From positions 62,001 to 126,000 of the forward strand of contig WSYC01000005.1 of NCBI GenBank assembly GCA_009773635.1: 64,000 nucleotides of DNA. The letters run 5' to 3'. A program made the position numbers and the translations under genes. The notes under the pieces were generated by a model. It had not been told where the DNA came from. It saw nothing but the letters and a program-made list of their open reading frames with translations, and searched no databases. Below, one piece after another: positions 7,446 through 63,266 of this stretch; position 1 is the first letter of the stretch, and each line of letters starts with the position of its first letter. The DNA is from Beijerinckiaceae bacterium. Its GTDB lineage: Bacteria; Pseudomonadota; Alphaproteobacteria; Rhizobiales; Beijerinckiaceae.

Positions 7446-7580
7446 TCAGCCCCGAGCGTCATGCCGCTTCCTCCAAGGGTGTAGGTCGGCACGCGCGTGC
7501 TTAACGGAAAAGGTGGGGCAGGGCAAGAGTTCCACCGGGCAAGAGTGCCCCTGAACATGAGTGCCCCCGGCGCGGTGGCC

Positions 7581-8147
7581 CTATGTCGGGCGCACGGGAT
7601 AACCGTCTTTCTTGATCATCTGCCAGTTCTCATAAAACAGAAGCCCGTCCTGACGCGGCAGTACCTTCACCTGCCGTGTATCGCCCCAGACGTGGCTGAC
7701 ATGGTTGCGAAAGGGCGTGTAGAATCCGAGCGAGGTCCAAGCCTGCGCCGTCCCGCCATTGAGCCCCATCAGCGAGCGGGCGGCAGCCTCGAGAAACCCC
7801 CAACCCTTCGAGCCACCCGCTACCCGGCAACCGGCGAAATAGATCATCGCGCTCGGCAGGAAGAGATTGTCGAAGCCCTTGTTGTAGAACTGGGTGTACC
7901 AGGTGTCGCGGTTGATCCATTCCTTGCCGAAAAGGATCACGCCCTTGTTGCCGTGTCCGGTAAAAATGGCGTTCTGGAAGCGGATACCCTGCTGGATCAG
8001 CGACTGCATTTCCGCACGCATGCGTGCATGTCCCTCGCCGACGTTGAGGACGAGCGAGTTTTCTTCCTTCTCGCGGGCGAACCAGCGCGTCTGGCGGCTG
8101 GTGACATCGTTGATGATCAGCAATCGGTATTTGGTCTGCTCGCTCAT
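7581..8147 (-). CDS. Small caspase-fold (clan CD / DUF4347-like) candidate
   Basis: A 188-residue cytoplasmic protein with no signal peptide. It shows the ordered signature of clan CD proteases: a strand ending in T-G-H65-G, then a hydrophobic strand ending in F-A-G-C107-R with G-G-S-K-G-W-G-F after it. H65 and C107 would form the His/Cys dyad. The overall pattern resembles DUF4347 and gingipain/caspase-like folds better than any esterase. The start has AAAGGA 7 bases upstream. It is divergent from a secreted protein gene and sits inside the conserved prs/rplY neighbourhood, which suggests insertion. Family and activity are inferred from motif order only. Confidence 0.5.
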   Translation of the reverse strand: MSEQTKYRLLIINDVTSRQTRWFAREKEENSLVLNVGEGHARMRAEMQSLIQQGIRFQNAIFTGHGNKGVILFGKEWINRDTWYTQFYNKGFDNLFLPSAMIYFAGCRVAGGSKGWGFLEAAARSLMGLNGGTAQAWTSLGFYTPFRNHVSHVWGDTRQVKVLPRQDGLLFYENWQMIKKDGYPVRPT

Positions 8148-8366
8148 CGCTTAATCCTTTCGCGGCGCGAAGTGCCGGCTCCGGTGAGCACGGGAGTGCG
8201 AATCTTCGCGAAAGGAGATGAGCGAGGCTGTGCGCACCGGCACAGCGATATCGTTTCAGGACCGCCGGCGAATTGTGATAAAAAAATAAGGATGGAGCGA
8301 TATAATACTTTGATTCGGCTCTATATTCTCGTGTCCTGGCGGCATTCAACTGGAAAGGCTTCACTT

Positions 8367-8870
8367 ATGTCCGCATCAAAACTCCGTATCCTCTTTCTGG
8401 CGGGCCTTGTCGCACTTTTCCCGGCGGTTGCTGTCGCAAAATCCTACACCATTCCGGACCCGAACCCGGTTGCCGTGGTGACCATCCCGGATGATTGGGA
8501 AACCACTGTGATCCCCAAGGGAATCGAGGTCGAATCCGAGGACGAGGAAATCTACATCGCGATCGAGGTCATCGAGGTCGCCAAGGTCGACAAGGCGATC
8601 GAAGAGGCGATCAACTGGCTCAAGAGCAAGGATGTGGTGGTGGATGCCGCCACGCAAAAGCAGGCCGATATTACCATCAACGGCATTCCCGGCTTTGAAG
8701 TGCAATGGACCGGCAAGGACGCGGATGGGCCGACCAACGTCAGCCTGACCCTGCTTGTCACCAGCGAGAGCAAGGGCCTCATGGTGACCTATTGGGCGTC
8801 ACCGGAAGGCGAAAAAGACAACATGAAGGCGCTCAAGGGCATCATCGAGAGCCTGAAATCGGTGAAGTAA
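8367..8870 (+). CDS. Exported protein of unknown function
   Basis: A 167-residue protein with a clear Sec signal peptide (cleavage expected after A-V-A-V-A). The mature part begins S-Y-T-I-P-D-P-N-P, is acidic, and alternates strands and helices with no cysteines. I do not recognise the family. GGAAAGG precedes the ATG at 8367. An intrinsic terminator follows. It is divergent from the caspase-like gene across 219 bases, so the two may share control. Confidence 0.75.
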   Translation: MSASKLRILFLAGLVALFPAVAVAKSYTIPDPNPVAVVTIPDDWETTVIPKGIEVESEDEEIYIAIEVIEVAKVDKAIEEAINWLKSKDVVVDAATQKQADITINGIPGFEVQWTGKDADGPTNVSLTLLVTSESKGLMVTYWASPEGEKDNMKALKGIIESLKSVK

Positions 8871-8895
8871 ATTCCCGGCCACGCAACCGAAACGA

Positions 8896-8921
8896 GCCGC
8901 AGGTCAACGCCTGCGGCTTTT
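8896..8921 (+). terminator. Intrinsic terminator between convergent genes
   Basis: GCCGCAGG-TCAACG-CCTGCGGC is followed by TTTT, 25 bases after the exported-protein stop and just before the convergent prs stop. Confidence 0.85.
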
Positions 8922-8925
8922 CATG

Positions 8926-12493: not shown

Positions 12494-12775
12494 TCAGCCG
12501 CAAACCTTGCGGCGAACGACGACATAGCCGCCGACATAAGGGTCATAGATGCGCTTGCGGGCGATGTAGCACTCGGTATAGCCGACACCGACGAGGCCGA
12601 TGCCGCCCCAATAGTGGTGGCCGCGCCAACGATGGTGACCGCCGTGATGGCCATGATGGCCGCCGTGATGGCCGCGCATGCCGTGGCCGCTGCGGGCTTC
12701 GGCGGCAGGGGCGAAAGCGACGGCCAGCGTGAGGGCGGCAGCCGCAGCGGTGAGGGTCTTGGTGAAGAGGTTCAT
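12494..12775 (-). CDS. Small secreted His/Gly-rich protein
   Basis: A 93-residue protein with a Sec signal peptide (A-A-A-A-A-L-T-L-A-V-A-F-A-P, cleaved near E-A-R-S). A short His-Gly-rich tract follows (about residues 28-48), then a C-terminal module with two cysteines: Y-T-E-C-Y and R-R-K-V-C-G. The tail is shared with the gene at 13141-13407, so the two are paralogues. The His tract could bind metal. The ATG at 12775 is chosen because it starts the signal peptide. Confidence 0.75.
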   Translation of the reverse strand: MNLFTKTLTAAAAALTLAVAFAPAAEARSGHGMRGHHGGHHGHHGGHHRWRGHHYWGGIGLVGVGYTECYIARKRIYDPYVGGYVVVRRKVCG

Positions 12776-13026
12776 GGTGGTCTCCTTGTGGTCGGGCCAT
12801 CGGGGGGTGTGGCGGGCGACCTTTGCTTGGGGCATTGGGTTGCATTCGGGGTTCAGGCGCTGCTCGGGGGCGGGCAGTGATGAGAGATTACCGCCGGGCT
12901 TCCGGGTTGACGGTGCGCTGGCGCACCAGAGTGAAGCCTGAGGAGGAATTTTTTAATCGATCGAATATGGATGCTGCTTCACCCTGATTCTGTTCGACCA
13001 GCAGCGCTTCTCACCGCTTGAGACAT

Positions 13027-13140: not shown

Positions 13141-13407
13141 TTATTCGCAGACCGTGCGGCGCACGATCACGAAGCGACCGCGATAGTCGTCCCAGACGCG
13201 CTCACGGACACGGTAGCAATCCGAGCCATGATAGCCGGCGTTGGCATTGCTGGCGGCGATCGCGGTGCCGACAACGGCGGCGCCGATCAGGCCGGCGGCG
13301 AGGAAGCCACCACGGCCCCAGCGGGCTTCGGCGGAAACGGGGGCGAAGGCGACGGCCATCGTGAGGGCGGCGGCAGCGGCGGCGAGGGTTTTCTTGAAGG
13401 TGGTCAT
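13141..13407 (-). CDS. Small secreted protein, paralogue of the His-rich protein
   Basis: An 88-residue protein with a signal peptide almost identical in pattern to its neighbour (A-A-A-A-A-L-T-M-A-V-A-F-A-P). A Gly/Ala-rich hydrophobic stretch (F-L-A-A-G-L-I-G-A-A-V-V-G) follows and could span or dip into the membrane. The same two-cysteine tail is present: S-D-C-Y-R-V and V-R-R-T-V-C-E. The middle differs from the paralogue, which has the His tract instead. Function unknown. Confidence 0.75.
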   Translation of the reverse strand: MTTFKKTLAAAAAALTMAVAFAPVSAEARWGRGGFLAAGLIGAAVVGTAIAASNANAGYHGSDCYRVRERVWDDYRGRFVIVRRTVCE

Positions 13408-13616
13408 CGGGGTGCTCCTGAGGGTTTGAATTCGGGTTCTGGGGGTGGGCACTGTCATCGGCGGTTTTCATTCCCGCCGGTCTTGTTTCGGCGATGTGTG
13501 GACCCTACGCCGTGCCCGCCGGGGTCGCGGTGCGTTGGCGCACATTTGAGAAATGCTGTTCGGGAATCGTCCCGGCACCTTTGCGGTTTGCCCGGGAGCC
13601 CCTATCTGTCGAAGAC

Positions 13617-31565: not shown

Positions 31566-31654
31566 TTGCGGAACACATTCTAATTGCGAGAGCGGGCGCC
31601 AAAGCGTCCGCCAGCAGCCAGTTCGACGACGGGGAAACCGTTGTTGGGGGGCGA

Positions 31655-31690
31655 AAAGGGTCCGGGGTGAATGCCCCGGGCCCTTTTTTT
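31655..31690 (+). terminator. Intrinsic terminator of the second barrel gene
   Basis: AAAGGGTCCGGGG pairs with CCCCGGGCCCTTT around a 6-base loop, with a continuing T run. It stands about 90 bases after the stop and directly before the convergent GST gene. Confidence 0.92.
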
Positions 31691-31692
31691 GA

Positions 31693-38451: not shown

Positions 38452-38475
38452 GGCGAGTTCGCGGGCGCGAAGGAC

Positions 38476-38979
38476 TCACAACCAGCGACGGACGCCGGAT
38501 TTGTAGCCGAGGTATCCGGCCCCGAATTTGCGTTCGAGATACGCCTCCTCGCGCGCGATCACGCCATGACGGAGGACAAGATAGAAGGGGACCAGTGCGG
38601 CAAGTTGCCAGAGGCTGTTGAATCCGATCGAAAACCCGATCTGTCCAAGGAGCATGCCGGAATACATCGGGTTGCGCGTGAAGCGATATGGGCCGACGGC
38701 GACAATGGCGGTTGTTGGCTTGTGGGGTTCGATCCGCGTCCCCGCTTTACGAAAAGTCAGGATCGCCCAGAGCGAGAGAGCGAAGCCAGCCCCAAAGATC
38801 GCAGCCCCGACCCAGATACGGGAAACAGCAGCAGGGATGTATGGCAGCGGCAAAAACCAATCCAATGCGAGACCGAGGGCTATGGCCAGCGCCCAGGCGA
38901 CCGGCGGTGGAATAACAACGTTGGCCTTGTCCATATCCTGAGTTTTGCTGGCATTTATGCCTTTGTCGAAATTCATCAT
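38476..38979 (-). CDS. Isoprenylcysteine carboxyl methyltransferase-like membrane protein
   Basis: A 167-residue membrane protein with four or five helices and the ICMT/PEMT-type SAM-binding motif G-P-Y-R-F-T-R-N-P-M-Y, followed by E-E-A-Y-L-E-R-K-F-G-x-x-Y. In bacteria such proteins methylate lipids or small molecules. Two adjacent ATGs could start it. It converges on the amidase. Confidence 0.88.
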   Translation of the reverse strand: MMNFDKGINASKTQDMDKANVVIPPPVAWALAIALGLALDWFLPLPYIPAAVSRIWVGAAIFGAGFALSLWAILTFRKAGTRIEPHKPTTAIVAVGPYRFTRNPMYSGMLLGQIGFSIGFNSLWQLAALVPFYLVLRHGVIAREEAYLERKFGAGYLGYKSGVRRWL

Positions 38980-39259
38980 CGTTCAATTCCGCCCCTGCTG
39001 ACTGCCTAAATGTCGTGGACGTGACATGTCCGGCCGGGGCTGCCAAATGAACTTAATTTGTATCTGGCCGGGGGGTTGCCGGAAAATATCGAGGCATTGA
39101 GCTTTATTGGTCATGAGGAGCCGAAGCATCAAATCTGTTGAAAATTGGCACAGGCGCAGCAAACGCCCGTTAACCTTTCCGCAACGCATCAACGAAAACC
39201 CATTGCCAACAAATTAAGGAGGCGTAAACTTCCCGTGTCTCCAACCGAGGAGTGTGATC

Positions 39260-39343
39260 ATGAGCGCTTCATTCAGGCTTGATTATCTGGCGTTCCTTGC
39301 GTCGTTCGGGCTGTTGGTTGCAATCGTTTTCGGGGCCATCTGA
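39260..39343 (+). CDS. 27-residue single-helix membrane microprotein
   Basis: A very short gene read directly from the sequence: GAGGAG stands 7 bases before the ATG, and the product M-S-A-S-F-R-L-D-Y-L-A-F-L-A-S-F-G-L-L-V (first 20 residues) continues hydrophobic to the stop at 39341. One membrane helix with a short N-terminal polar head. The strong ribosome site and isolated position argue for a real gene. No function can be given. Confidence 0.6.
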   Translation: MSASFRLDYLAFLASFGLLVAIVFGAI

Positions 39344-39405
39344 GGTCCAAGCTCGCCGGTCCGGCGCGATACTGAGCTTTTCTCCAAGACCCGCCCCGCT
39401 GCCGC

Positions 39406-39738
39406 TCAGCTTTGCGGGCAGGGGCTGCCGATGGATTTCCACGATGTGACATTGAGATCCATCGAGCAGCGGAACACCTGGCTGTTCAGACAGATCTGCA
39501 TCCCCAGCTGAAACGAATTGCCGTGCGCCCTGCACGTGCACTCGGGATGGTTTTGCGCGTGCCGAGCCGCCTCGGCATTCTCGAACGAGACGACCGGCCT
39601 TGGTGCAGGGCTATGGTGGTCGCTGGCCTGTGCCGTGATGGCGCAGAGCAGGATGGCGATGCCAGACACGGGGCATGAAATGCCGTGAAACGTCCTCCGG
39701 CGATGGCGTGATGCGGGTCGTCCTCCTGAAATCGGCAT
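39406..39738 (-). CDS. Small exported Cys-rich protein
   Basis: A 110-residue protein with a basic N-terminal region, a hydrophobic signal core (I-A-I-L-L-C-A-I-T-A-Q-A-S) and a mature domain with five or six cysteines: C-T-C-R-A-H-G, M-Q-I-C-L, F-R-C-S-M and S-P-C-P-Q. The C-x-C-R ... C-L ... C-x-M-x-L-N-x-x-S-W layout recurs in Hyphomicrobiales exported proteins of unknown function. GAGGGA precedes the ATG at 39738. Confidence 0.65.
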   Translation of the reverse strand: MPISGGRPASRHRRRTFHGISCPVSGIAILLCAITAQASDHHSPAPRPVVSFENAEAARHAQNHPECTCRAHGNSFQLGMQICLNSQVFRCSMDLNVTSWKSIGSPCPQS

Positions 39739-39956
39739 GCGAGAAATTCCCTCTTGCGATTTGTGACAGGTTTTCTTGGCGGACTTATCTCACTCTTGGA
39801 CAGGCTTGCTCGTTGGACAGGTCTCTGTGAGAGATCACTTTCCAAGCCCGAAGGATCCCGCGTGTTCCTCAACCTGTCAATCGAGCGTTTGCGTAAAGTG
39901 ATTTTAAGAAATGCAACCTAGAATTGTATTTTGAAATCTGATTTCAGGATCTGTCG
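39739..39956. other. Divergent promoter region
   Basis: This AT-richer stretch lies between the Cys-rich gene (minus) and the PepSY-like gene (plus). It holds a 16-bp element shared with the HD-GYP promoter, listed separately. No gene seen. Confidence 0.5.
39907..39922 (+). promoter_or_regulatory. Shared 16-bp upstream element, copy 1
   Basis: AGAAATGCAACCTAGA lies 34 bases upstream of the PepSY-like ATG. An identical copy stands at 41475-41490 in the same orientation to its own gene and 32 bases from that start. Likely a promoter or activator element. Confidence 0.55.
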
Positions 39957-40298
39957 ATGCCAGCCTTTTCCAGATGCTGTCCGGGCGCGCTCTCGTTGGT
40001 GCTTGTATCCTCGCTGGCGGTGCCCGCTCTTGGTGCTGCCGCCAAGGTCGTGGACAAGGCCGCCGACAAGGCTGTCCACAAGCCGGTCGGCAAGCCTCCC
40101 AATCCGTTCTGCGCGAGTGTGCCACGCCTCAACTGGCTTTCCGCGGAGGAGGTTGAAATGCGGCTCAGGGAACAGGGGCTCAGCCTCGTCCGGCTCCGGC
40201 TGGCGGATGACAAATGCTACGCGGTGCTGGTGCGCGACGCATCCGGCCAGACACGCGATCTGATCCTGCATCCCGTGACTGCCGAAATCGTGCGCTGA
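39957..40298 (+). CDS. Small exported PepSY-like protein
   Basis: A 113-residue exported protein with a signal peptide (about 1-27, ending A-L-G-A-A), a Lys/Ala/Asp linker (K-V-V-D-K-A-A-D-K-A-V-H-K) and a C-terminal PepSY-type domain: L-S-A-E-E-V-E-M-R-L-R-E-Q-G, then Y-A-V-L-V-R-D-A-S-G and the final V-T-A-E-I-V. Such domains often inhibit peptidases or bind partners in the periplasm. Confidence 0.7.
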   Translation: MPAFSRCCPGALSLVLVSSLAVPALGAAAKVVDKAADKAVHKPVGKPPNPFCASVPRLNWLSAEEVEMRLREQGLSLVRLRLADDKCYAVLVRDASGQTRDLILHPVTAEIVR

Positions 40299-40323
40299 GC
40301 GCGCGGCCAGTCTGTGGGTGGCA

Positions 40324-41442
40324 TTAAGCCGCCAGATTGGTTTCCAGTGCGATCGGCTTGAACGCCTCGACCAGCGACATGTCGAGTTTGCCATCCATGG
40401 CTCCGAGAATGCCGTAGGCCGCCTCGTTCGGCAGCGGCAGCTTGTAGGCGCGTTGCTCGATCAGCGCGGCGAAGATATCCGAGATCGTCACGATACGGAC
40501 GAGATCCTTGATCTCCCGCCCGCTCAGGCCATTCGGATAGCCCGAGCCATCCAGCATTTCGTGATGATGCGTTACGACGTCGATCATTTCCGGCGCAAAA
40601 CCGCCTTGCCGCGTCAGGATGTCCCGCCCGTGCAGGGTATGTTCGCGGACAATCGCGGCCTCGTCAGGGGTCAGCCCTGTCGGCTTTTCGAGAAGTGGGA
40701 CAGGGATAACGGCCTTGCCGACGTCATGCAGCAATCCACCCAGCGCAAGCCGCCGCAGGTCCTCCTTGCGCATGGTGAGATGCTGCCCAAAGCCCACAGC
40801 GATCCCGGTCACCAGCAGCGAGTGCCGGAATGTCTGGCTGTGATGCGCCTTGACGGCTTCGACCCAGTGGCCGAGCCCGGTTTCGGCCAGCGTATCGATG
40901 ACGATGTCGCCGCGATCGTAGAGTTCATATTGGGTCAGCTTGGAGCCGCTCACGGCAAACTCGAACAGTTGTTCGAGCACTTCCGTGCCGGCGGAAAGAC
41001 CGGCCGCCTGACGGCCAAACTGGCTCGCCCACGCGCGGCGCCGGGCCTTGTCGAGCAGGGAGGCTACAACGCGGGACACTGTGCCTGCCGCAATCGGCCT
41101 CGGGATGACGCCTTCGGCGCCGATGGCATGCGCGCGCACCGCCAATGGCCGCGAGAGCGTTTCGATGACGCAGGCGATCCCCGGCTGTGGCTTTGGCAGT
41201 TTCCGGCACGCCGTCCGGATCGCTTCCATATCGATTTCATTGGCAAGCGGGGCGTCGATAATCAATTCCAGCGGCTCGGTCCAAGCGTAGCCCGGCAGTT
41301 CCGCGAGAGTGCACTCGACAAAGCGGTGGCGCTCCGCCAGCGCTGTGCGGATATCCGCGCGGGGGCTTTCATGGCCGTGGACGAGGAGGAGTTGGGTCTG
41401 ATGGCGGGTCACGGCGTGCATTTCCTGTCGGCTGACAAGCAT
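40324..41442 (-). CDS. HD-GYP domain c-di-GMP phosphodiesterase with degenerate receiver
   Basis: A 372-residue cytoplasmic protein. The N-terminal 120 residues have a receiver-like alternation but lack a clear acidic pocket and phospho-acceptor, so this is a pseudo-receiver. The C-terminal HD-GYP domain is complete: L-L-H-D-V-G-K, H-T-L-H-G, and H-H-H-E-M-L-D-G-S-G-Y-P-N-G-L. It should hydrolyse c-di-GMP to pGpG/GMP. ATG at 41442 chosen; a GTG one codon earlier is possible. Divergent from a PilZ gene. Confidence 0.88.
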   Translation of the reverse strand: MLVSRQEMHAVTRHQTQLLLVHGHESPRADIRTALAERHRFVECTLAELPGYAWTEPLELIIDAPLANEIDMEAIRTACRKLPKPQPGIACVIETLSRPLAVRAHAIGAEGVIPRPIAAGTVSRVVASLLDKARRRAWASQFGRQAAGLSAGTEVLEQLFEFAVSGSKLTQYELYDRGDIVIDTLAETGLGHWVEAVKAHHSQTFRHSLLVTGIAVGFGQHLTMRKEDLRRLALGGLLHDVGKAVIPVPLLEKPTGLTPDEAAIVREHTLHGRDILTRQGGFAPEMIDVVTHHHEMLDGSGYPNGLSGREIKDLVRIVTISDIFAALIEQRAYKLPLPNEAAYGILGAMDGKLDMSLVEAFKPIALETNLAA

Positions 41443-41474
41443 CACACCACAAAAGCTGAAACAAAAAATAAAAC

Positions 41475-41490
41475 TCTAGGTTGCATTTCT
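41475..41490 (-). promoter_or_regulatory. Shared 16-bp upstream element, copy 2
   Basis: Read on the minus strand this is AGAAATGCAACCTAGA, identical to the copy at 39907-39922. It lies 32 bases before the HD-GYP start codon and is followed, as in copy 1, by a T-rich stretch. Confidence 0.55.
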
Positions 41491-41581
41491 AGATCGCGCG
41501 ATAAACCATATTCGAAGGCTCCGATTGCCCCCGCTAATGACTTGTTTACAATGTTCGTCATTGCACAGGCAGGAGTTGATA

Positions 41582-41953
41582 ATGCAGGACATTGCGAGAG
41601 CGGAACGCCGCGCGGAATACCGTCGGCGCGCGTTGATGGCGGGAACATTGCGGTTCAAAACCCGGAGCGGGACGCTTTCCTGCGTTGTCCGCGACCTTTC
41701 GGTGACCGGCGCGAAGCTCGTGATCAGCAGCCCGATGTGGATTCCCGAACAGTTCGAGCTGGAAATCCAGCATCAGGATATGCGCATCGATGCCCGGCCG
41801 GTCTGGCGGGGCGCAACCGAGATGGGCATCGCTTTCATCGGCAAGCGTAACGAACAGGGCCGTTCGGCGCGCGCTGAGGAAAAAGTGATTTCGCTCGAAG
41901 CCGAGCGCGAGAGACTTCAGCGCCGCGTACGCCAGCTTTCCGAGGAATTCTAA
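41582..41953 (+). CDS. PilZ-domain protein
   Basis: A 123-residue protein with a c-di-GMP-binding PilZ domain. The R-x-x-x-R motif is in E-R-R-A-E-Y-R-R-R and the D-x-S-x-x-G motif is D-L-S-V-T-G-A. A C-terminal helix ([14 protein letters not shown]) is probably coiled-coil. The ATG at 41582 has AGGAG 6 bases upstream. It is divergent from the HD-GYP gene and overlaps the uvrB 3' end by 4 bases on the other strand. Confidence 0.88.
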
Positions 41954-55928: not shown

Positions 55929-55999
55929 TCGACGCAGTTAGACGTCGAAAAGGATGGAGCGCCCCCCGAAAAAGGGAGCGCCAAGGGGAGATGAAGTCC

Positions 56000-57682
56000 A
56001 TGTCGCACCAAGCTGTGCCGTCGCGCCCGTGGCTTGCCGGGTATCCGAATGCCGTTCCGGCTGATATCGATGTGCCGCTGCTGCCGACGTTGGCGGAACT
56101 GATTGTCCGCAGTTCGCAGGAATTCGCGGACAAGCCGGCCTTCATCAGTTTCGGCAAGACCTTGACGTTCCGGGAGATCGGCGCGGCTGCAAGTGCCATT
56201 GCCGGCTATCTTCAGGCGCAGGGGTTCAGGAAGGGCGATCGCATCGCCATCATGATGCCGAATGTGATGGCTTATCCGGCGGTGATGTTCGGCTGCCTCA
56301 TCGGCGGCTACACGGTTGTCAACGTCAATCCGCTCTATACGGTTCGGGAGTTGACGCATCAGATCAACGATTCCGGGGCCGAGGCGATTTTCGTTCTCGA
56401 GAATTTTGCCTCCGTTGTGGCTGAAGCGCTGCCGCATACCAACCTCAAGAAGGTCGTGATCGCGCAGGCGGGCGATCTCCTCGGCCTCAAGGGCAAGATT
56501 GTTTCCTTCGTTGCAAAATACGTGAAGAAGGTTGTTCCGGCCTACACGCTTCCCGCCGCAACGATGCTGCCCGATGCGCTGCGCGCCGGCGCTGCCGCGG
56601 GTATGAAGCCCGTTGATGTCACCCTCGATGATCTGGCCTTCCTCCAGTATACCGGTGGCACGACCGGCGTGTCGAAGGGGGCGGCGCTGACGCATCGCAA
56701 TGTCGCGGCGAATGTCGTGCAATGCGACGCCTTCCTGGGCTGGGCGATCCGGCCGGTGCCGGACAATGTGATGGTCACGGCGTTGCCGCTCTATCACATC
56801 TTCGCGCTGACCTGCTGCTGCCTGTTCATGATGCGGATCGGAGCCGCGTGCCTGCTGATCGCCAATCCGCGCGATATTCCGGGCTTCATCGGCATCCTCC
56901 AGAAGACGCGCTTCACGCTGATGTCCGGCGTCAACACCCTCTACAACGCGCTGGCGAACCACCCCGATATCCGCAAGGTGGATTTCTCGAACCTCAAGTT
57001 CTGCGTCGCGGGGGGGATGGCGACCCAGAGCGCTGTCGCCAAGAACTGGAAGAGTGTGACCGGCTGTTCGATCGTCGAAGGCTACGGCCTTTCCGAGACC
57101 TCGCCGGTGCTGACGATCAACCGGCCGGACCTGCCGGAGTTCTCCGGCACGATCGGCTATCCCATGCCTTCGACCGATATCGAGCTGCGGGACGCGGACG
57201 GCAAGGCAGTGCCGATGGGCGAAGCGGGGGAAATCTGCGCGCGTGGCCCGCAGGTGATGCCGGGATACTGGCAGCGGCCGGACGAGACGGCGAAGGTCAT
57301 GACCGCCGACGGCTTCTTCCGCACCGGTGATATCGGCGTCCAGCTGCCGGATGGCACCTTCAAGATCGTCGATCGCCTCAAGGATATGATCCTCGTCTCC
57401 GGCTTCAACGTCTATCCCAATGAGGTCGAGGAGGTCATCGCGCAGCATCCGGGCGTGCTGGAAGTCGCTGTGATCGGCGTGCCCGACCCGCAGTCGACCG
57501 AGGCGGTCGCGGCCTATATCGTCAAGAAAGACCCGGATCTTGATGCCGAAACCATCCGTGCGCATTGCCGGACGACCCTGACCGCCTACAAGGTTCCGCG
57601 CGTCATTCACTTCCGGGAGGCGCTGCCGAAAACCAACGTCGGCAAGGTGCTTCGCCGCATGCTGCGCGAACCGGCAGCCTGA
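56000..57682 (+). CDS. fadD: Long-chain acyl-CoA synthetase
   Basis: A 560-residue AMP-forming ligase that activates fatty acids with CoA and ATP. The AMP-binding P-loop is Y-T-G-G-T-T-G-V-S-K-G-A, then Y-G-L-S-E-T-S-P, the D-x-x-x-x-G and hinge segment R-L-K-D-M, and the catalytic Lys in K-T-N-V-G-K-V-L-R-R. Length and motifs fit FadD. The ATG at 56000 is chosen since GGGGAG lies 9 bases upstream; the ATG at 55991 touches that site. Confidence 0.92.
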   Translation: MSHQAVPSRPWLAGYPNAVPADIDVPLLPTLAELIVRSSQEFADKPAFISFGKTLTFREIGAAASAIAGYLQAQGFRKGDRIAIMMPNVMAYPAVMFGCLIGGYTVVNVNPLYTVRELTHQINDSGAEAIFVLENFASVVAEALPHTNLKKVVIAQAGDLLGLKGKIVSFVAKYVKKVVPAYTLPAATMLPDALRAGAAAGMKPVDVTLDDLAFLQYTGGTTGVSKGAALTHRNVAANVVQCDAFLGWAIRPVPDNVMVTALPLYHIFALTCCCLFMMRIGAACLLIANPRDIPGFIGILQKTRFTLMSGVNTLYNALANHPDIRKVDFSNLKFCVAGGMATQSAVAKNWKSVTGCSIVEGYGLSETSPVLTINRPDLPEFSGTIGYPMPSTDIELRDADGKAVPMGEAGEICARGPQVMPGYWQRPDETAKVMTADGFFRTGDIGVQLPDGTFKIVDRLKDMILVSGFNVYPNEVEEVIAQHPGVLEVAVIGVPDPQSTEAVAAYIVKKDPDLDAETIRAHCRTTLTAYKVPRVIHFREALPKTNVGKVLRRMLREPAA

Positions 57683-57768
57683 AACGCTTCCGCGTGCGGT
57701 GACGGTCTCGTGATTTTGACGCGAGCGCGCCGCACGCTACCGTTCTCCCGACAGTGAGGGAGAACGTC

Positions 57769-58734
57769 ATGCATTATCACCGCCGCCAGGGTTGGGAACT
57801 GCCCGAGAATACTGCCACGCCCGAGCATCTCGTGATGTCCCGGCGTAGCCTGCTCGGCGGTGCCGCTGCTCTGGGTGGTGGCTTGCTTCTGGGCGCGTCA
57901 TCTCGCCCGGCGCTGGCGGCGACGCAGGCCGAGACCGACGCGTTCCACCCCTATGTGCGCAACCCGGCCTATACGCTTGACCGGGCGCTGACGGAGGAGA
58001 AGGTCACCTCCGTCTACAATAATTTCTACGAATACGGGACATCCAAGAGCATTTCTGCCGCCGCCCAGCAGCTCAACGTGCGACCCTGGGTGCTCAAGGT
58101 CGATGGCATGGTGGAAAAGCCACGTGAGATCGGCATCGACGATCTCATGGCCGCCATGCCGCGCGAGGAGCGGCTCTATCGCTTCCGCTGCGTCGAGGCG
58201 TGGTCGATGACCATCCCGTGGTCCGGCTTCCCGATGAAGGCACTGGTGGATTATCTGAAGCCGCTCTCCTCCGCGAAATACGTGCGGATGGAAACCTTCT
58301 ACGATCCGAAAATGGCGCCCGGCCAGCGTGCCCCATTTTACCCCTGGCCCTATGTCGAGGGCGTCACGATCGAGGAAGCCGCGAACGACCTCGCGTTCAT
58401 CGTGACCGGGGCTTACGGCAAGCCGCTGGCGAAGCAGTTCGGCGCGCCGCTGCGCCTCGCACTGCCGTGGAAATACGGCTTCAAGTCGATCAAGTCGATT
58501 TCGAAGATCACCTTCACCGACAAGCGCCCGGTGGGCCTGTGGGAAGCCCTGCAATCGAGCGAATACGGCTTCTGGGCCAATGTGAACCCGGAGGTCAGCC
58601 ATCCGCGCTGGAGCCAGGCGACCGAGAACGTGCTCGGAACCAACACCCGTGTGCCGACGCAGCTGTTCAACGGCTACGCCGAGCACGTCGCGGGGCTCTA
58701 CAAGGGGTTGGAGAAAGAGCGGCTCTGGGCGTGA
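57769..58734 (+). CDS. msrP: Periplasmic methionine sulfoxide reductase, molybdoenzyme subunit
   Basis: A 321-residue Tat-exported (S-R-R-S-L-L-G-G) molybdopterin protein that repairs oxidised methionines in the periplasm. The Mo ligand is C141 in F-R-C-V-E-A-W-S. The Y-L-K-P, F-Y-D-P and L-P-W-K-Y-G-F segments are family-typical. AGGGAG sits 7 bases before the ATG. The heme partner MsrQ, normally next to it, is not in the window. Its last 87 bases recur at 59684-59770. Confidence 0.95.
   Translation: MHYHRRQGWELPENTATPEHLVMSRRSLLGGAAALGGGLLLGASSRPALAATQAETDAFHPYVRNPAYTLDRALTEEKVTSVYNNFYEYGTSKSISAAAQQLNVRPWVLKVDGMVEKPREIGIDDLMAAMPREERLYRFRCVEAWSMTIPWSGFPMKALVDYLKPLSSAKYVRMETFYDPKMAPGQRAPFYPWPYVEGVTIEEAANDLAFIVTGAYGKPLAKQFGAPLRLALPWKYGFKSIKSISKITFTDKRPVGLWEALQSSEYGFWANVNPEVSHPRWSQATENVLGTNTRVPTQLFNGYAEHVAGLYKGLEKERLWA
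58648..58734 (+). repeat. msrP tail, copy B1 (functional)
   Basis: The last 87 bases of msrP, from the codon for Arg in R-V-P-T to the stop. They align without gaps to 59684-59770 with about ten mismatches. Confidence 0.9.
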
Positions 58735-58740
58735 TTGCTG

Positions 58741-58762
58741 AAAAAACGCGGCGACCCGCCGC
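58741..58762 (-). terminator. Minus-strand intrinsic terminator behind msrP
   Basis: A GCGGCG-ACC-CGCCGC hairpin with a six-A run on its left reads on the minus strand as a stem followed by TTTTTT. It faces a minus-strand gene, though the gene to its right (PAS protein) is on the plus strand. Confidence 0.6.
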
Positions 58763-58850
58763 AAATGCAGGGTATGCGTCAAAAAATACAACTAGAAGTT
58801 AATATTTTTCCATCATGGTTGTGCCGGCGCCGAGCTTGCAGGACAATTTC

Positions 58851-59633
58851 ATGACCATTCACGTTCCCTCAGGCCATCTAGAAATACTCTCCCGATTGCA
58901 GCGGACAGTTGGCGTCCACATGTGGACGCTTGACCTCGATCACGGCGTATTCCAGTTCGAGATCGGGCAGAACACCGATTCGGGTACCTGCCGCTCGCTG
59001 CCGCTGGAAATACTCCGTTCATTGCTGGCTCCAGAGGAAATGCAGATCGTTGCTGCGCATTGGAGGGAGGCGGCCCTAAGCGGCATTGCCGGCCCGGCAT
59101 TGCTGCCCTTCGTCAAGGCCGACGGTGCTCGGTCACAGGTCGAATCGGCTTGTTGCCTGCTGCGCGACGGTCAGACGAATTCTCTGTTGGGTGTGTTCCG
59201 CCGACCATCCGTGATTGTGAGCAATCAGCAGGAGATCGGGATGCACAAGGAGAGGCTGCTCGTCGAATATGTCGAAGCCTTCATCGATAATTCGCCGAGT
59301 GCGATCGTTGTCGCCAGTCCCGGCGGCTCCATCATCAGTATCAATCAGGAATGCCTGCGCTTCCTGGGCAAGTCGCATCGCAGTGAGGTGCTGCGGAAGT
59401 CCTTGCATGAGATTCTGCGCGCGATCGATATCGGGCTGGGGGATATTGTTGCGCAGGTGATGGGATCGACCAAGCCCATGCGGGGGCGCTACGACGTGCA
59501 ACTGGGGCACGGCAAGCGGCATACGCTGTACTGGCGTTTTTTCGCGCTGAGCGGCAGCTTTTCGACTTCACCGCCGAAGGTCTTTGCCTTCGACGTGAAT
59601 TCGGGAGGTCCACGCGCCGGCTCACCTCAATAA
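58851..59633 (+). CDS. PAS-domain protein, possibly 3'-truncated
   Basis: A 260-residue soluble signalling protein. The first 120 residues look like a divergent PAS fold; a clearer PAS domain spans about 140-240 (F-I-D-N-S-P-S-A-I-V-V-A-S-P-G-G ... I-N-Q-E). There is no kinase, GGDEF or DNA-binding output. Its last codon and stop lie inside repeat A1 (59627-59686), so the gene ends exactly where lysR-tail DNA begins and may have lost its output domain. AGGA 7 bases upstream supports the ATG at 58851. Confidence 0.7.
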   Translation: MTIHVPSGHLEILSRLQRTVGVHMWTLDLDHGVFQFEIGQNTDSGTCRSLPLEILRSLLAPEEMQIVAAHWREAALSGIAGPALLPFVKADGARSQVESACCLLRDGQTNSLLGVFRRPSVIVSNQQEIGMHKERLLVEYVEAFIDNSPSAIVVASPGGSIISINQECLRFLGKSHRSEVLRKSLHEILRAIDIGLGDIVAQVMGSTKPMRGRYDVQLGHGKRHTLYWRFFALSGSFSTSPPKVFAFDVNSGGPRAGSPQ

Positions 59634-59686
59634 ACCCAGCGCTGTGCCTTGCTGACGAGAAAATCCCTGAAAACCTGCACGCGCGC
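59627..59686 (-). repeat. lysR tail, remnant copy A1
   Basis: Sixty bases identical, but for one, to the 3' end of lysR at 60192-60251. It is a dead fragment joined directly to the msrP tail fragment, with a 3-base overlap at CGC. Confidence 0.9.
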
Positions 59687-59770
59687 GTCCCGACGAAGTT
59701 GTCCAACGGCTACGCCGAGCATGTCGCGGGGCTCTGCAAGGGGCTGGAGAAAGAGCGGTTGTGGGCGTGA
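59684..59770 (+). pseudogene. msrP tail fragment, remnant copy B2
   Basis: A fragment matching the last 87 bases of msrP including the stop codon. It has no start and is about 89 percent identical to the functional tail. The next base begins the stop codon of the exported protein on the other strand. Confidence 0.88.
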
Positions 59771-60169
59771 TCAGAACTCGCCTTCGACGACTTCGACGTT
59801 GAAGTTGATGGTGGAAGCATATTTCTTCCCCCAACGATCTGTTCCAAGAAGCTGAACAACTACTCGGTCACGGCCGATCTTCAATGGGGACAACCGCACT
59901 GTTGTAATCGCAGTTTGTGTCTCGCCAAGGGAAAATCCGTCGATAATTCTGAATCCGTTTTTCGCATTCAGTGAACTGCCAATGTTGTATGAGCACCAGC
60001 GTTTCTTTTCTGATTTATTGAATCGAGACATTTTCCAATTCACGTCAACCGTGCAACCAGTACAGATTCTCGTTGAATCCGCGCGACACTTATCTGCCCA
60101 TGCAACGCTTGATGAGGCTGTGACAGTCAGTGCTGCTGTTGCAGCGACGAAAATCCAATGCTTTTTCAT
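59771..60169 (-). CDS. Small exported protein of lower GC, cargo of the msrP-lysR junction
   Basis: A 132-residue exported protein: signal peptide (about 1-27, ending S-S-V-A-W-A), then D-K-C-R-A-D-S-T-R-I-C-T-G-C and a further R-W-C-S-Y, i.e. four cysteines, followed by a beta-rich region. Within 59821-60120 I count about 49 percent GC, well under the neighbours. Family not recognised. It lies 22 bases after the lysR stop on the same strand and may be read through from it. Confidence 0.7.
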   Translation of the reverse strand: MKKHWIFVAATAALTVTASSSVAWADKCRADSTRICTGCTVDVNWKMSRFNKSEKKRWCSYNIGSSLNAKNGFRIIDGFSLGETQTAITTVRLSPLKIGRDRVVVQLLGTDRWGKKYASTINFNVEVVEGEF

Positions 60170-60191
60170 TTTGAATCCCGCTTTAAAAAAT

Positions 60192-60251
60192 TCAATAAAC
60201 CCAGCGCTGCGCCTTGCTGACGAGAAAATCCCTGAAAACCTGCACGCGCGC
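60192..60251 (-). repeat. lysR tail, copy A2 (functional)
   Basis: The last 60 bases of lysR, repeated at 59627-59686 with one mismatch. Confidence 0.9.
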
Positions 60252-61082
60252 AACCTGTTTGAGCGCCTCGGGATAGACAAGGTAGCAATCGAGGTGCGGC
60301 ATCGTCTCGCCCTGCAGCAACTGCACCAGCGGTGATGTCTGGTCGACCATGTAATCCGGCAGCACGGCGATGCCCGCCCCGCCGGTTGCCGCGTGATGCA
60401 GCGCGGTGATCGAATTGACAACCAGCGCCGGCAGGCGCGGCTCCTTGCGTTCGCGCCCGGCGGTGCAGTGCCAGTTGATATCCTCGAGATAGCCCGGAAT
60501 ATCGCCGCCGAACGCGACCAGCCGGTGCTCGTCGAGATCGCCGATCACGCGCGGCGCGCCAAAGCGCTTCAGATAATCCGGTGACGCGTAGACATGAAAA
60601 TGCACGGCGAACAGCCGTCGACGAATCAAATCCGCCTGCACTGGTGCGCGCAACCGCAGTGCGACATCGGCCTCGCGCATGGCCAGATCAAGCTCGTCAT
60701 CGGTCAGGATGACCTGAAGCCGGATATCGGAATACATATCCAGAAACTCGGAGAGGCGCGGGGTCAGCCAATTGCCGCCAAGCGCGACATTCGCGGTGAT
60801 TTTCAGCTCGCCATTGGGTTTTTCGCGGCTGTCGGAGAGGCTGGCGCGCGTCTGTTCGAGTTTGGTGACGAGTTCACGTGCGGTGCGGAACAGCAGTTCG
60901 CCCTGTTCGGTCAGCACCAGCCCGCGGGCATGGCGATGGAACAGCGGCACGTCCAGTTCGCCCTCGAGCGCGGAAACCTGCCGGCTGACGGCGGATTGCG
61001 ACAGGCCGAGGACCTCGCCGGCGCGGGTGAGGCTGCCGGCTTCTGCAGCGGCATAGAAGATCCTGACGCGATCCCAGTCCAC
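60192..61082 (-). CDS. LysR-family transcriptional regulator
   Basis: A 296-residue regulator. The N-terminal winged helix-turn-helix (about 1-60: G-S-L-T-R-A-G-E-V-L-G-L-S-Q-S-A-V-S-R-Q) is typical, followed by a linker helix and the two-lobed effector domain. A LysR gene beside trxB is a repeated alphaproteobacterial pairing. Here 125 bases separate its start from the trxB stop on the same strand. Targets unknown, possibly thioredoxin reductase. Confidence 0.92.
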   Translation of the reverse strand: MDWDRVRIFYAAAEAGSLTRAGEVLGLSQSAVSRQVSALEGELDVPLFHRHARGLVLTEQGELLFRTARELVTKLEQTRASLSDSREKPNGELKITANVALGGNWLTPRLSEFLDMYSDIRLQVILTDDELDLAMREADVALRLRAPVQADLIRRRLFAVHFHVYASPDYLKRFGAPRVIGDLDEHRLVAFGGDIPGYLEDINWHCTAGRERKEPRLPALVVNSITALHHAATGGAGIAVLPDYMVDQTSPLVQLLQGETMPHLDCYLVYPEALKQVARVQVFRDFLVSKAQRWVY

Positions 61083-61207: not shown

Positions 61208-62197
61208 TTACTCCGCGGCAATCTTGCCGGCTGCGTGCGTGGTCATGAAGCGTTCGGCTTCCAGTGCCGCCATGCAGCCGAGCCCGGCGGCGGTGACAGC
61301 CTGCCGGAACTGGTCATCGGCGACATCGCCGGCGGCAAAAACGCCGGGGACATTTGTCTGCGTCGTGCCGGGGATGACCTTGAGGTAGCCGGAATCCTTC
61401 ATCTCCAGCTGGCCGGCGAAGAGGCCGGAGGCCGGCGCATGGCCGATGGCGACGAACACGCCATCGGTTTTCAGCTCTGTAACCGCGCCGGTCTTGACGT
61501 TCTTCACCTTCAGATGCGTGACGGAAAGCGGCCCCTCGGTGCCGCAGATTTCCTCGATCGCGCTGTCCCAGATCACCTCGACCTTCGGGTGGGCGAAGAG
61601 CCGGTCCTGCAGGATGCGCTCGGCCTTGAAACTGTCTCGACGGTGGATGACCCGGACCTTGCTCGCAAGATTGGCGAGATAGAGCGCTTCCTCGACGGCG
61701 GAATTGCCGCCGCCGACCACAACAACCTCCTTGTTGCGGTAGAAAAACCCGTCGCAGGTCGCGCAGGCGGAAACGCCGAAGCCCTTGAACTTGTCTTCCG
61801 AGGGGATGCCGAGCCATTTGGCTTTCGCGCCGGTGGCGATGATCAGGGTGTCGCAGGTGTAGCGCACGCCATCATCCCCCGTGAGTGTGAAGGGGCGACG
61901 GGAGAGGTCGACGGCGCTGATGTGATCCGAGATCATTTCGGTGCCGACATGTTCCGCCTGCGCCTTCATCTGCTCCATCAGCCAAGGACCCTGGATCGCC
62001 TCGGCGAAGCCGGGGTAATTCTCGACCTCGGTGGTGATCATGAGCTGCCCGCCCGGCTCGAAGCCCGAGATCAGCAGCGGCTTCATCATCGCGCGCGCGG
62101 CATAGATCGCGGCGGTATAGCCGGCGGGGCCGGAGCCGATGATGATCACCTTGGCGTGGCGGGGCGGTTCTCCCTGGCGTTGTGCCTCTTGACTCAT
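61208..62197 (-). CDS. trxB: Thioredoxin-disulfide reductase
   Basis: A 329-residue flavoenzyme that reduces thioredoxin with NADPH. FAD loop G-S-G-P-A-G-Y-T-A-A at 21-30, the redox pair C145-A-T-C148, NADPH loop G-G-G-N-S-A-V-E-E-A, and the C-terminal F-A-A-G-D-V-A-D-D. GGAGAG lies 7 bases before the ATG at 62197, and the stop of the ELM1-like gene lies one base upstream, so they form one transcript. Confidence 0.97.
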   Translation of the reverse strand: MSQEAQRQGEPPRHAKVIIIGSGPAGYTAAIYAARAMMKPLLISGFEPGGQLMITTEVENYPGFAEAIQGPWLMEQMKAQAEHVGTEMISDHISAVDLSRRPFTLTGDDGVRYTCDTLIIATGAKAKWLGIPSEDKFKGFGVSACATCDGFFYRNKEVVVVGGGNSAVEEALYLANLASKVRVIHRRDSFKAERILQDRLFAHPKVEVIWDSAIEEICGTEGPLSVTHLKVKNVKTGAVTELKTDGVFVAIGHAPASGLFAGQLEMKDSGYLKVIPGTTQTNVPGVFAAGDVADDQFRQAVTAAGLGCMAALEAERFMTTHAAGKIAAE

Positions 62198-62198
62198 C

Positions 62199-63266
62199 TC
62201 AACTCTCCTTCGGCCGGGGGAGCGCCCCTCTGAATTCCTGATAGCGCCGCGCAAGCTCGATCGCGATCGCGGGCGTCGCATCCATAGGTTCATAGCTATA
62301 GGGATCGATGGCGCCAGAGAAGGGGCGGAGAACCCCCAACCCTTCAAGTCCACGCAAGAATTGATCGATTTTCCGTGATCGGCCGGTCGCGCGGAAGACA
62401 TGCACCGGTTTGCCGGTGGCGAGCGCCTCGCCGATCATGTTGACCGATTCCGCTGTCACCACCAACGCATCCGCGTTGGCGAGCAGGGCGCGATAGGGGT
62501 TGTCGGCCAGGTTGTCAGGATTTCGGCCATCCCAGAACCAGCCGCCACTGGCCTCGATCCGCGTGCGGGCTGCCTCCGCCAATTCCGGTGGCGTGCGGCG
62601 CGAGGTGGTCGCCATGATGCCGACGCCGCTCTGCGCAAGGTGGCCGAGAACATCCCAGAAGCGGCGGATATCCGCGTCGGTGAAGTGGAAATCCTTGGAA
62701 GTGCCGCCGATCAACACCGCGACACGCGGGGTCCTGAGGGCGGCAATCGGTGCGGGCGGATCGGAGCGCAGGGCGGAAAGACTCTCCGGCGTGATCCGGT
62801 GCGGGGAGGTGAGGGTTGTCATCACGTTGTCCCCGCGCAGGCGATCGTGTTCCGGCACCCAGAGGAAATCCGCGATGCCGGCGTCCGTGCGCGGATCTTT
62901 CAGAAAAACCGTGAAGGTCCGCCCGCCCGAAGCCCGCTTGATCGCAGGAAGATATGGCGCGGCCCGACGCCCGGAGGCAATCACGAGATCGGGAAACGGC
63001 GGTTGCAGCGGGCCTCCCGCCCGGCCGGGCGCCTCCGCAGGATCAAGGGCGAGAAAGGGCAACCGCCAGCTCAGCGGCATCAGCCAGGCCCATGGCGCAC
63101 GCGGAGCAATCACTTTCTCGATCGGCTTCAACCCCAGCCGCTCGGCGATGCCGAGGCATTGGGCGAGATCGCCGGCCTTGCCATCCGTCAGCACCCAGCA
63201 GGAAGTGCCGCCGAGGGAGGATCGGGCAAGGGCCAAGGCCGATGGTGGTGAGGGCGCAGCAGGCAA
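62199..63266 (-). CDS. ELM1-like protein (mitochondrial-fission ELM1 family)
   Basis: A 355-residue protein of the family named after plant ELM1, widespread in alphaproteobacteria. Marks: W-V-L-T-D-G-K-A-G-D, D-L-V-I-A-S-G-R-R-A-A, L-I-G-G-T-S-K-D-F, and T-A-E-S-V-N-M-I-G-E-A-L-A-T-G-K-P-V. The fold resembles GT-B glycosyltransferases, so a sugar-transfer role is plausible but unproven. TTG start at 63266 with GGAAG 7 bases upstream. Confidence 0.87.
   Translation of the reverse strand: MPAAPSPPSALALARSSLGGTSCWVLTDGKAGDLAQCLGIAERLGLKPIEKVIAPRAPWAWLMPLSWRLPFLALDPAEAPGRAGGPLQPPFPDLVIASGRRAAPYLPAIKRASGGRTFTVFLKDPRTDAGIADFLWVPEHDRLRGDNVMTTLTSPHRITPESLSALRSDPPAPIAALRTPRVAVLIGGTSKDFHFTDADIRRFWDVLGHLAQSGVGIMATTSRRTPPELAEAARTRIEASGGWFWDGRNPDNLADNPYRALLANADALVVTAESVNMIGEALATGKPVHVFRATGRSRKIDQFLRGLEGLGVLRPFSGAIDPYSYEPMDATPAIAIELARRYQEFRGALPRPKES

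Follow-up and report, generated by a model that had tools for sequence, protein, structure and literature searches.

Why do the 3′ ends of two conserved genes, msrP and lysR, each occur twice around two unrelated small genes in one bacterial genome? The locus lies in a stretch of 64,000 nucleotides (hereafter the window) from a Beijerinckiaceae bacterium (GenBank assembly GCA_009773635.1, contig WSYC01000005.1, forward-strand positions 62,001 to 126,000), the assembly of which amounts to 3.24 Mb in 35 contigs; coordinates are positions in the window. Read in series, the junction consists of msrP, a gene for a PAS protein, a lysR tail fused to an msrP tail, a gene for an exported-type protein, and lysR; the frames of both enclosed (cargo) genes are open. 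The arrangement probably arose when two alleles of this junction were fused by homology-facilitated illegitimate recombination (HFIR). Its parts are as follows.

57754..58734, + strand: msrP, methionine-sulfoxide reductase catalytic subunit, the left conserved neighbour (NCBIfam NF003767, E 1.3e-121)
58648..58734, + strand: B1, the 3′ end of intact msrP (direct repeat)
58851..59633, + strand: PAS cargo gene, 260 amino acids, predicted tandem PAS without a visible output domain (Pfam PAS_8, E 3.3e-6)
59627..59686, − strand: A1, truncated lysR 3′ end, which retains the PAS–lysR joint (59/60 identical to A2)
59679..59690: fusion point of A1 and B2, in the GC-rich stretch CACGCGCGC, placed by base-by-base comparison with A2 and B1
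59684..59770, + strand: B2, truncated and partly decayed msrP 3′ end that directly abuts the exported-gene stop (direct repeat)
59771..60169, − strand: exported cargo gene, 132 amino acids, with a signal-peptide-like N-terminus (by eye), beta-rich, of no known family
60192..60251, − strand: A2, the 3′ end of intact lysR (direct repeat)
60192..61082, − strand: lysR, LysR-family regulator, the right conserved neighbour (Pfam LysR_substrate and HTH_1)

An earlier note, made from the sequence alone, had reported the duplicated tails, and a direct-repeat search recovered them independently: 58643-58735 against 59679-59771 (93 nt, 87%) for the msrP tail, and 59627-59686 against 60192-60251 (60 nt, 98%) for the lysR tail. 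When the whole 64-kb window is compared with itself by BLASTN on the same strand, the B and A pairs are found at E 1.1e-25 and 1.9e-22, respectively, and only one further pair of 40 nt or longer, with its copies no more than 6 kb apart, reaches E ≤ 1e-6, at 12685 and 13314. Between msrP and lysR there are no repeats besides the gene tails. A recount returned the divergence given in the note, 10 differences in 87 positions for the B copies and 1 in 60 for the A copies, and the cargo between the tails is likewise as described there, a 260-residue PAS gene and a 132-residue exported-type gene. At the joint the sequence follows lysR through 59686 and msrP from 59687, inside CACGCGCGC. The window's own msrP, in the register of B1, agrees at five of the eight bases of 59679-59686; the msrP of the other parent is not in the sample.

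Alternative alleles in related genomes

The genus sample comprised 17 genomes, namely the window genome (G000) and 16 relatives. In all of them msrP is present and convergent with lysR, the contig of G009 ending inside lysR, and the lysR protein at the junction is 84-96% identical in 15 of the 16 relatives, the sixteenth being cut by a contig end. The PAS gene stands alone at the junction of G004, G006 and G007 (43, 43 and 38% identity to the window protein) and the exported gene alone at that of G005, G008 and G009 (54, 50 and 55%). Ten genomes have no gene there, their gaps, measured between protein matches, being 16-182 bp, and the window genome is the only one of the 17 with both. As at sites of exchange through flanks, the same flanks thus hold differing content (empty 10, PAS 3, exported 3, both 1), and the prediction that relatives would carry single cargoes between msrP and lysR is borne out. 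Neither observation that the earlier note held to speak against its reading was made: msrP and lysR are convergent in 17 of 17 genomes, and stacked tails are found in none of the 16 relatives. Each cargo gene keeps a constant orientation across all its carriers, and no second match of either protein (E ≤ 0.001) occurs elsewhere in the 17 genomes. Among 63 msrP–lysR gaps, 17 from the genus and 46 from wider junctions (two of the latter, L054 and L055, being the contigs of G004 and G010), that of the window is the only one with stacked tails.

The internal joints of the window resemble those of relatives with one cargo. Both G008 and G009 have the stop of msrP immediately before that of the exported gene (TGATCAGAACTCGCCTTCGACGACTTCGA); the same string ends B2, and the joint of B2 with the exported gene has 30 bases alike with the G008/G009 joint. 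The intact msrP (B1) of the window leads into the PAS side, and the PAS genes of G004 and G007 end on the lysR stop or a few bases from it at most, as that of the window does at A1. To judge by their joints, B2–exported gene–A2 and B1–PAS gene–A1 would each pass for an ordinary allele and stand one after the other, which argues that the window holds two alleles joined by a single fusion.

Each cargo gene is present in 4 of the 17 genomes, and a single genome has both, where about 0.9 would be expected if they were independent. Mutual exclusion of the cargoes, as in a test for idiomorphs, is therefore not supported statistically; the striking point is their shared address. Among the cargo-free relatives, the gaps of G012-G016 (loci L138, L141, L137, L139 and L135) are about 180 bp long and contain two tandem copies of a 68-76 nt unit, whereas those of G003, G010 and G011 contain a different, palindromic repeat, judged by eye.

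Origin of the stacked arrangement

HFIR is the best-supported mechanism for the stack. The junction would be a short stretch of changeable content inside a block of conserved genes, with non-homologous alleles (empty, PAS, exported). A cell of the window lineage with one cargo allele may have taken up DNA of a close relative with the other; the incoming fragment would have been anchored on one side, in lysR or in msrP, by pairing of homologous sequence, and its other end joined illegitimately, lysR tail to msrP tail, at a short GC-rich microhomology. The product would be both alleles in series, with the two truncated tails as the scar. A long anchor was available, since the site lies between msrP and lysR in every one of the 17 genomes, the actual other parent lying outside this sample. 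The joints of HFIR in published cases are GC-rich. The single recombination at a CGCGCG overlap that the earlier note had proposed is compatible with a microhomology join, the true length of which would be readable only from the donor. The layout, the single-cargo alleles of relatives and the resemblance of the joints are observed; that there was a single step rather than two we infer, and likewise which way the DNA moved, how far the microhomology extends and what vehicle carried the DNA.

The same product would be left by a transient tandem duplication (merodiploidy) of msrP–cargo–lysR, with one copy for each cargo, followed by a deletion at CGCGCG that joined the first lysR to the second msrP and took out what lay between. 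Transformation is described as making such tandem duplications in Streptococcus pneumoniae, in the part of that report drawn on here (PMC3784515). This route needs two events and both alleles beforehand in one cell, and in the window a search for repeats up to 6 kb apart, which did not extend to wider duplications, found no further tail-like copies. We regard it as the less likely course, and a rather unlikely one.

The tails themselves bear on the age and source of the alleles. Over 90 positions there are 12 differences between B2 and B1, against 17 to 33 between B2 and the msrP of each of the 16 relatives. Because B2 is nearer to the window msrP than to theirs, the other parent would so have been an unsampled close relative of the window lineage. 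The earlier note had suggested comparing B2 with the msrP of relatives that carry only the exported gene; the comparison does not point to them, their distances being 17 (G005), 22 (G009) and 27 (G008) of 90 against 12 to B1, and these distances rule out a donor among the known carriers. Two of the changes in B2 (Phe to Ser and Tyr to Cys) affect residues on which B1 and the 16 relatives all agree; such changes point to a decay of B2 that followed its truncation, as would befit a relic without function, and 3 of the 12 differences fall within the first two codons, at the joint. The suggestion that B2 came from another lineage therefore survives only for a close, unsampled one: its nearest match is the window's own msrP, and decay has added to the distance.

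A third possibility is vertical descent, with a genus ancestor that held both cargoes, later losses, and tail repeats that are old. The rpoB tree (16 of the 17 genomes, G006 having no match) and the trees of the flanking genes (17 genomes) place G005, G003 and G008-G011 in one supported clade; the window aside, the exported gene occurs only inside this clade and the PAS gene only outside it, a confinement that fits descent with losses. On the flank tree the pattern can be had with at least three changes for the PAS gene and at least four for the exported gene. The exported-gene carriers G005, G008 and G009 are rejected as a clade of their own (approximately unbiased [AU] test, p 0.0002). Old repeats are contradicted by the absence of a second tail from all 16 relatives and by the 98% identity of A1 and A2, which is the level of the closest species pairs and not of deep branches: lysR tails of other species differ by 14% on average, against 1 in 60 here, only species-to-species values that share one register being used. 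The PAS proteins, moreover, group G004 with G006 (54.8% identity against 37-43%; support 84/87), whereas the flanking proteins, msrP and lysR included, reject this pair (AU p 0.019), the branch of G006 being long. We consider old, inherited repeats improbable as the source of the stack, and vertical descent with losses could account for much of the remaining pattern.

Exchange is further suggested by G009. In the upstream neighbour fadD it is nearest to the cargo-free G010 (94.5%, against 90.2% to G008), whereas in msrP it is nearest to the exported-gene carrier G008 (93.5%, against 91.6% to G010). In the fadD–msrP alignment, the 500 columns 2250-2749, after which 84 columns remain to the msrP stop, have informative sites that favour G008 by 31:1, against 70:167 in the earlier columns. 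This mosaic and the conflict between PAS proteins and flanks fit an exchange of cargo together with a piece of flank. As possible routes for DNA, GTA_TIM is found in 16 of the 17 genomes and ComEC also in 16; their use is not implied. GTA_TIM occurs twice in the window genome, on different contigs (G000:C25:61445-62353 and G000:C27:109681-110589), three times in G001, once in 14 of the other 15 genomes and not in G016.

The least probable explanation is an artefact of assembly or library preparation that joined the alleles of two strains: although the assembly is in 35 contigs and its reads are not checkable, estimated contamination is 0% and completeness 98.7%, the repeats are internal to a contig of at least 126 kb, and changes of B2 at invariant residues are expected of a standing relic rather than of a fresh mix of working genes, so that we think this very improbable.

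Several points weigh against the fusion of two alleles by HFIR, or against parts of it. The contrast in divergence between the B and A copies is marginal (12/90 against 1/60, p 0.016; 9/84 against 1/60 without the joint, p 0.046), and the ordinary tails of G012-G014 show the same contrast, 11% and 1.7%. The joints of the relatives are not all flush, the PAS gene of G006 ending about 110 bp before lysR and the exported-gene and msrP stops of G005 lying 9 bp apart. The split in G009 was picked on the data, so its Fisher p of 1.9e-10 is uncorrected; an earlier bin, columns 1250-1499, also favours G008 (19:7), the final 84 columns favour G010 (7:4), and the switch of nearest neighbour within msrP concerns a single trio of genomes in which other mosaic bins are present. 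Since the donor is absent among the genomes compared, the microhomology, the direction and the lineage cannot be read directly. A foreign flank in the window genome gave no signal in trees or gene-wise identities; as neither flank stands out, the resident allele is not told apart from the incoming one. Finally, duplication followed by deletion would end in the same product.

Cargo genes and genomic setting

The AlphaFold2 model of the PAS protein is of low confidence (mean predicted local distance difference test [pLDDT] 65.7), and its Foldseek matches are two-PAS structures such as FixL, at E 5e-10 and a template modeling (TM) score of only 0.36. The protein is thus predicted, at low confidence, to consist of two PAS domains without an output domain, from which one might guess at a role as a sensory adaptor. 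A profile of it gave weak, partial matches, in longer frames, in 26 of 281 other genomes of the family (best E 5.8e-6). The model of the exported protein is beta-rich and also of low confidence (pLDDT 63), and the protein matches no Pfam family and no structure at E ≤ 0.001. Distant relatives of it were detected in 5 of the same 281 genomes, and a further one in a sample of 397 from across the order. At these five loci there is no msrP match, nor a lysR match of at least 45% identity, within about 1.5 kb, and nine neighbours of the distant homologues, from four of the five genomes, reveal no common theme. In all four carriers in the genus the exported gene is AT-richer than its surroundings (46.8-51.3% GC against 60.7-64.1%), start codons in G005 and G008, which bear on these values, being uncertain. 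Between G008 and G009 its nonsynonymous (dN) and synonymous (dS) divergences are 0.064 and 0.211, which is compatible with purifying selection. It is conceivable, and in our view doubtful, that the cargoes are functional alternatives at a locus whose polymorphism in the genus is maintained by frequency- or niche-dependent selection, that they are traded via their flanks (for instance by gene transfer agents), and that the window genome, as a rare double carrier, gains from both.

Two further genes belong to the conserved block; both names are presumptive and were given from the sequence.

55991..57682, + strand: acyl-CoA-ligase-like gene upstream of msrP, here called fadD (matched in 17 of 17 junction stretches)
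61208..62233, − strand: trxB-like gene beyond lysR (matched in 16 of 17 junction stretches)

In the seventeenth stretch the contig stops before the position of trxB. The spacing of fadD and msrP is unchanged in 11 of 11 relatives measured, and at 41 of the 46 wider junctions the trxB-like gene adjoins lysR. Loss or replacement of an msrQ was also considered: the Ferric_reduct-family genes of the genus sit on other contigs or more than 250 kb from msrP, so nothing points to it.

Beyond the genus, 99 loci were compared: the family supplied 14 with lysR, GTDB genomes supplied 80 with msrP (the best 80 among 590 found), and the five exported-gene loci completed the set. The two genes are convergent in 46 of them, many of the others ending too early to tell. 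Gaps between them in these 46 junctions range from 22 to 3608 bp (median 535.5), and the lysR–trxB gap, taken as a control at 41 wider loci, from 19 to 343 bp (median 79); within the genus the control gap reaches 982 bp in 1 of 11 relatives. Forty-eight gap frames of at least 70 amino acids were picked, of which 47 were scanned (the PAS gene of G004 was left out), and 30 Pfam families match at E ≤ 0.01, including ornithine cyclodeaminase (two members), PhzF, HAD, aminotransferase, TPP enzyme, NMT1 and GGDEF/EAL; many other frames look spurious.

As a second control, the junctions of 51 conserved window genes were compared in up to 11 relatives, counting by hand and with a threshold of 300 bp that was set afterwards. 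Gap variation of at least 300 bp is seen at 5 of 9 convergent junctions, msrP–lysR included, against 8 of 41 others, uncalled genes possibly contributing. Since four of the eight other convergent junctions in the window are equally variable, the site is variable and not special, and an exceptional hotspot is rejected. Of the earlier note's exchange hotspot, what remains is a junction that varies well beyond the genus: msrP–lysR is typical of variable convergent junctions, and what is unusual about it is its scar.

No mobile element was found to account for the exchange. There is no tRNA in the 63 msrP–lysR gaps and no integrase or transposase among 25 shown of the 30 Pfam families of the 47 gap frames, and a site driven by an integrase or a tRNA was accordingly set aside. 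An integron-type array was likewise discarded, as no integrase lies between msrP and lysR, the genome elsewhere not having been searched for one. Neither cargo protein was matched in plasmids, and no relative of the exported protein was found in viral contigs, where the PAS protein was not searched; carriage by plasmids or viruses was rejected on these results. Neither cargo matches PHROG (E ≤ 0.1) or PADLOC, and Rfam finds nothing in the window at the gathering threshold. In the gaps examined, these results agree with the earlier suggestion of an exchange site that lacks mobile-element genes.

Other convergent junctions of the window also vary. The gap at 7555-8925, 1371 bp here, ranges from 15 to 2596 bp in ten relatives and is likely a variable cargo site; that at 31566-31692 ranges from 75 to 4176 bp in five relatives, and that at 38452-41949 from 1012 to 2929 bp in ten, where uncalled genes may lie inside. 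The remaining repeat pair of the window, 12685-12786 and 13314-13419, is imperfect (80%); both copies coincide with similar signal-peptide starts on the − strand, judged by eye, and they apparently belong to two adjacent paralogous genes for secreted proteins.

Comparison with known systems

The msrP–lysR–trxB block occurs with a changing gap in many other Alphaproteobacteria (46 of 99 loci), which makes it a handy comparative site, useful for tracing the entry of single genes into convergent junctions and their exit. With single alleles in relatives and the fused product in one genome, the rules of one-sided illegitimate joining would become readable given the sequence of the other parent. 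A literature search on msrP, lysR and trxB, convergent insertion hotspots, stacked alleles, bacterial idiomorphs and flank-driven hotspots returned nothing on this junction among the matches listed.

HFIR is described for Acinetobacter, Streptococcus pneumoniae and Pseudomonas stutzeri, all three naturally competent (PMC2884548), and is reported in conjugation of E. coli (PMC3240628). As in those cases, one end would be joined by homology and the other by a short non-homologous join; the window case differs in that it would be read from a natural scar. The stacked Type VI effector-immunity arrays of Vibrio cholerae, for which HFIR has been proposed, offer a parallel: alternative cargoes are serially added at one site, gene ends are displaced, and the cargo belongs to one functional class (PMC5361080). 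In the window, by contrast, two unrelated intact genes lie between housekeeping genes, and only the flanking tails are duplicated. Homology-assisted illegitimate recombination is likewise proposed for the dimorphic segments of E. coli, S. aureus and S. pyogenes, described in the sections drawn upon as short alternatives at one position of the backbone, mostly without mobile elements (PMC2884548). Those segments are small and vary within species, whereas here whole genes vary across the species of a genus.

Variable spots without mobile elements, exchanged via flanking core genes, are also described, again as far as the available extract goes (PMC5635113). Such multi-gene chromosomal hotspots resemble the msrP–lysR junction in that content changes between genes that are conserved, neither an integrase nor a tRNA is found, and exchange passes through the flanks. 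They make up about 1% of chromosomal regions according to that extract, whereas msrP–lysR is a one-gene site, unexceptional among the convergent junctions of the window. What the junction offers is a clear case, from nature, of a process already known rather than a system of a new type.

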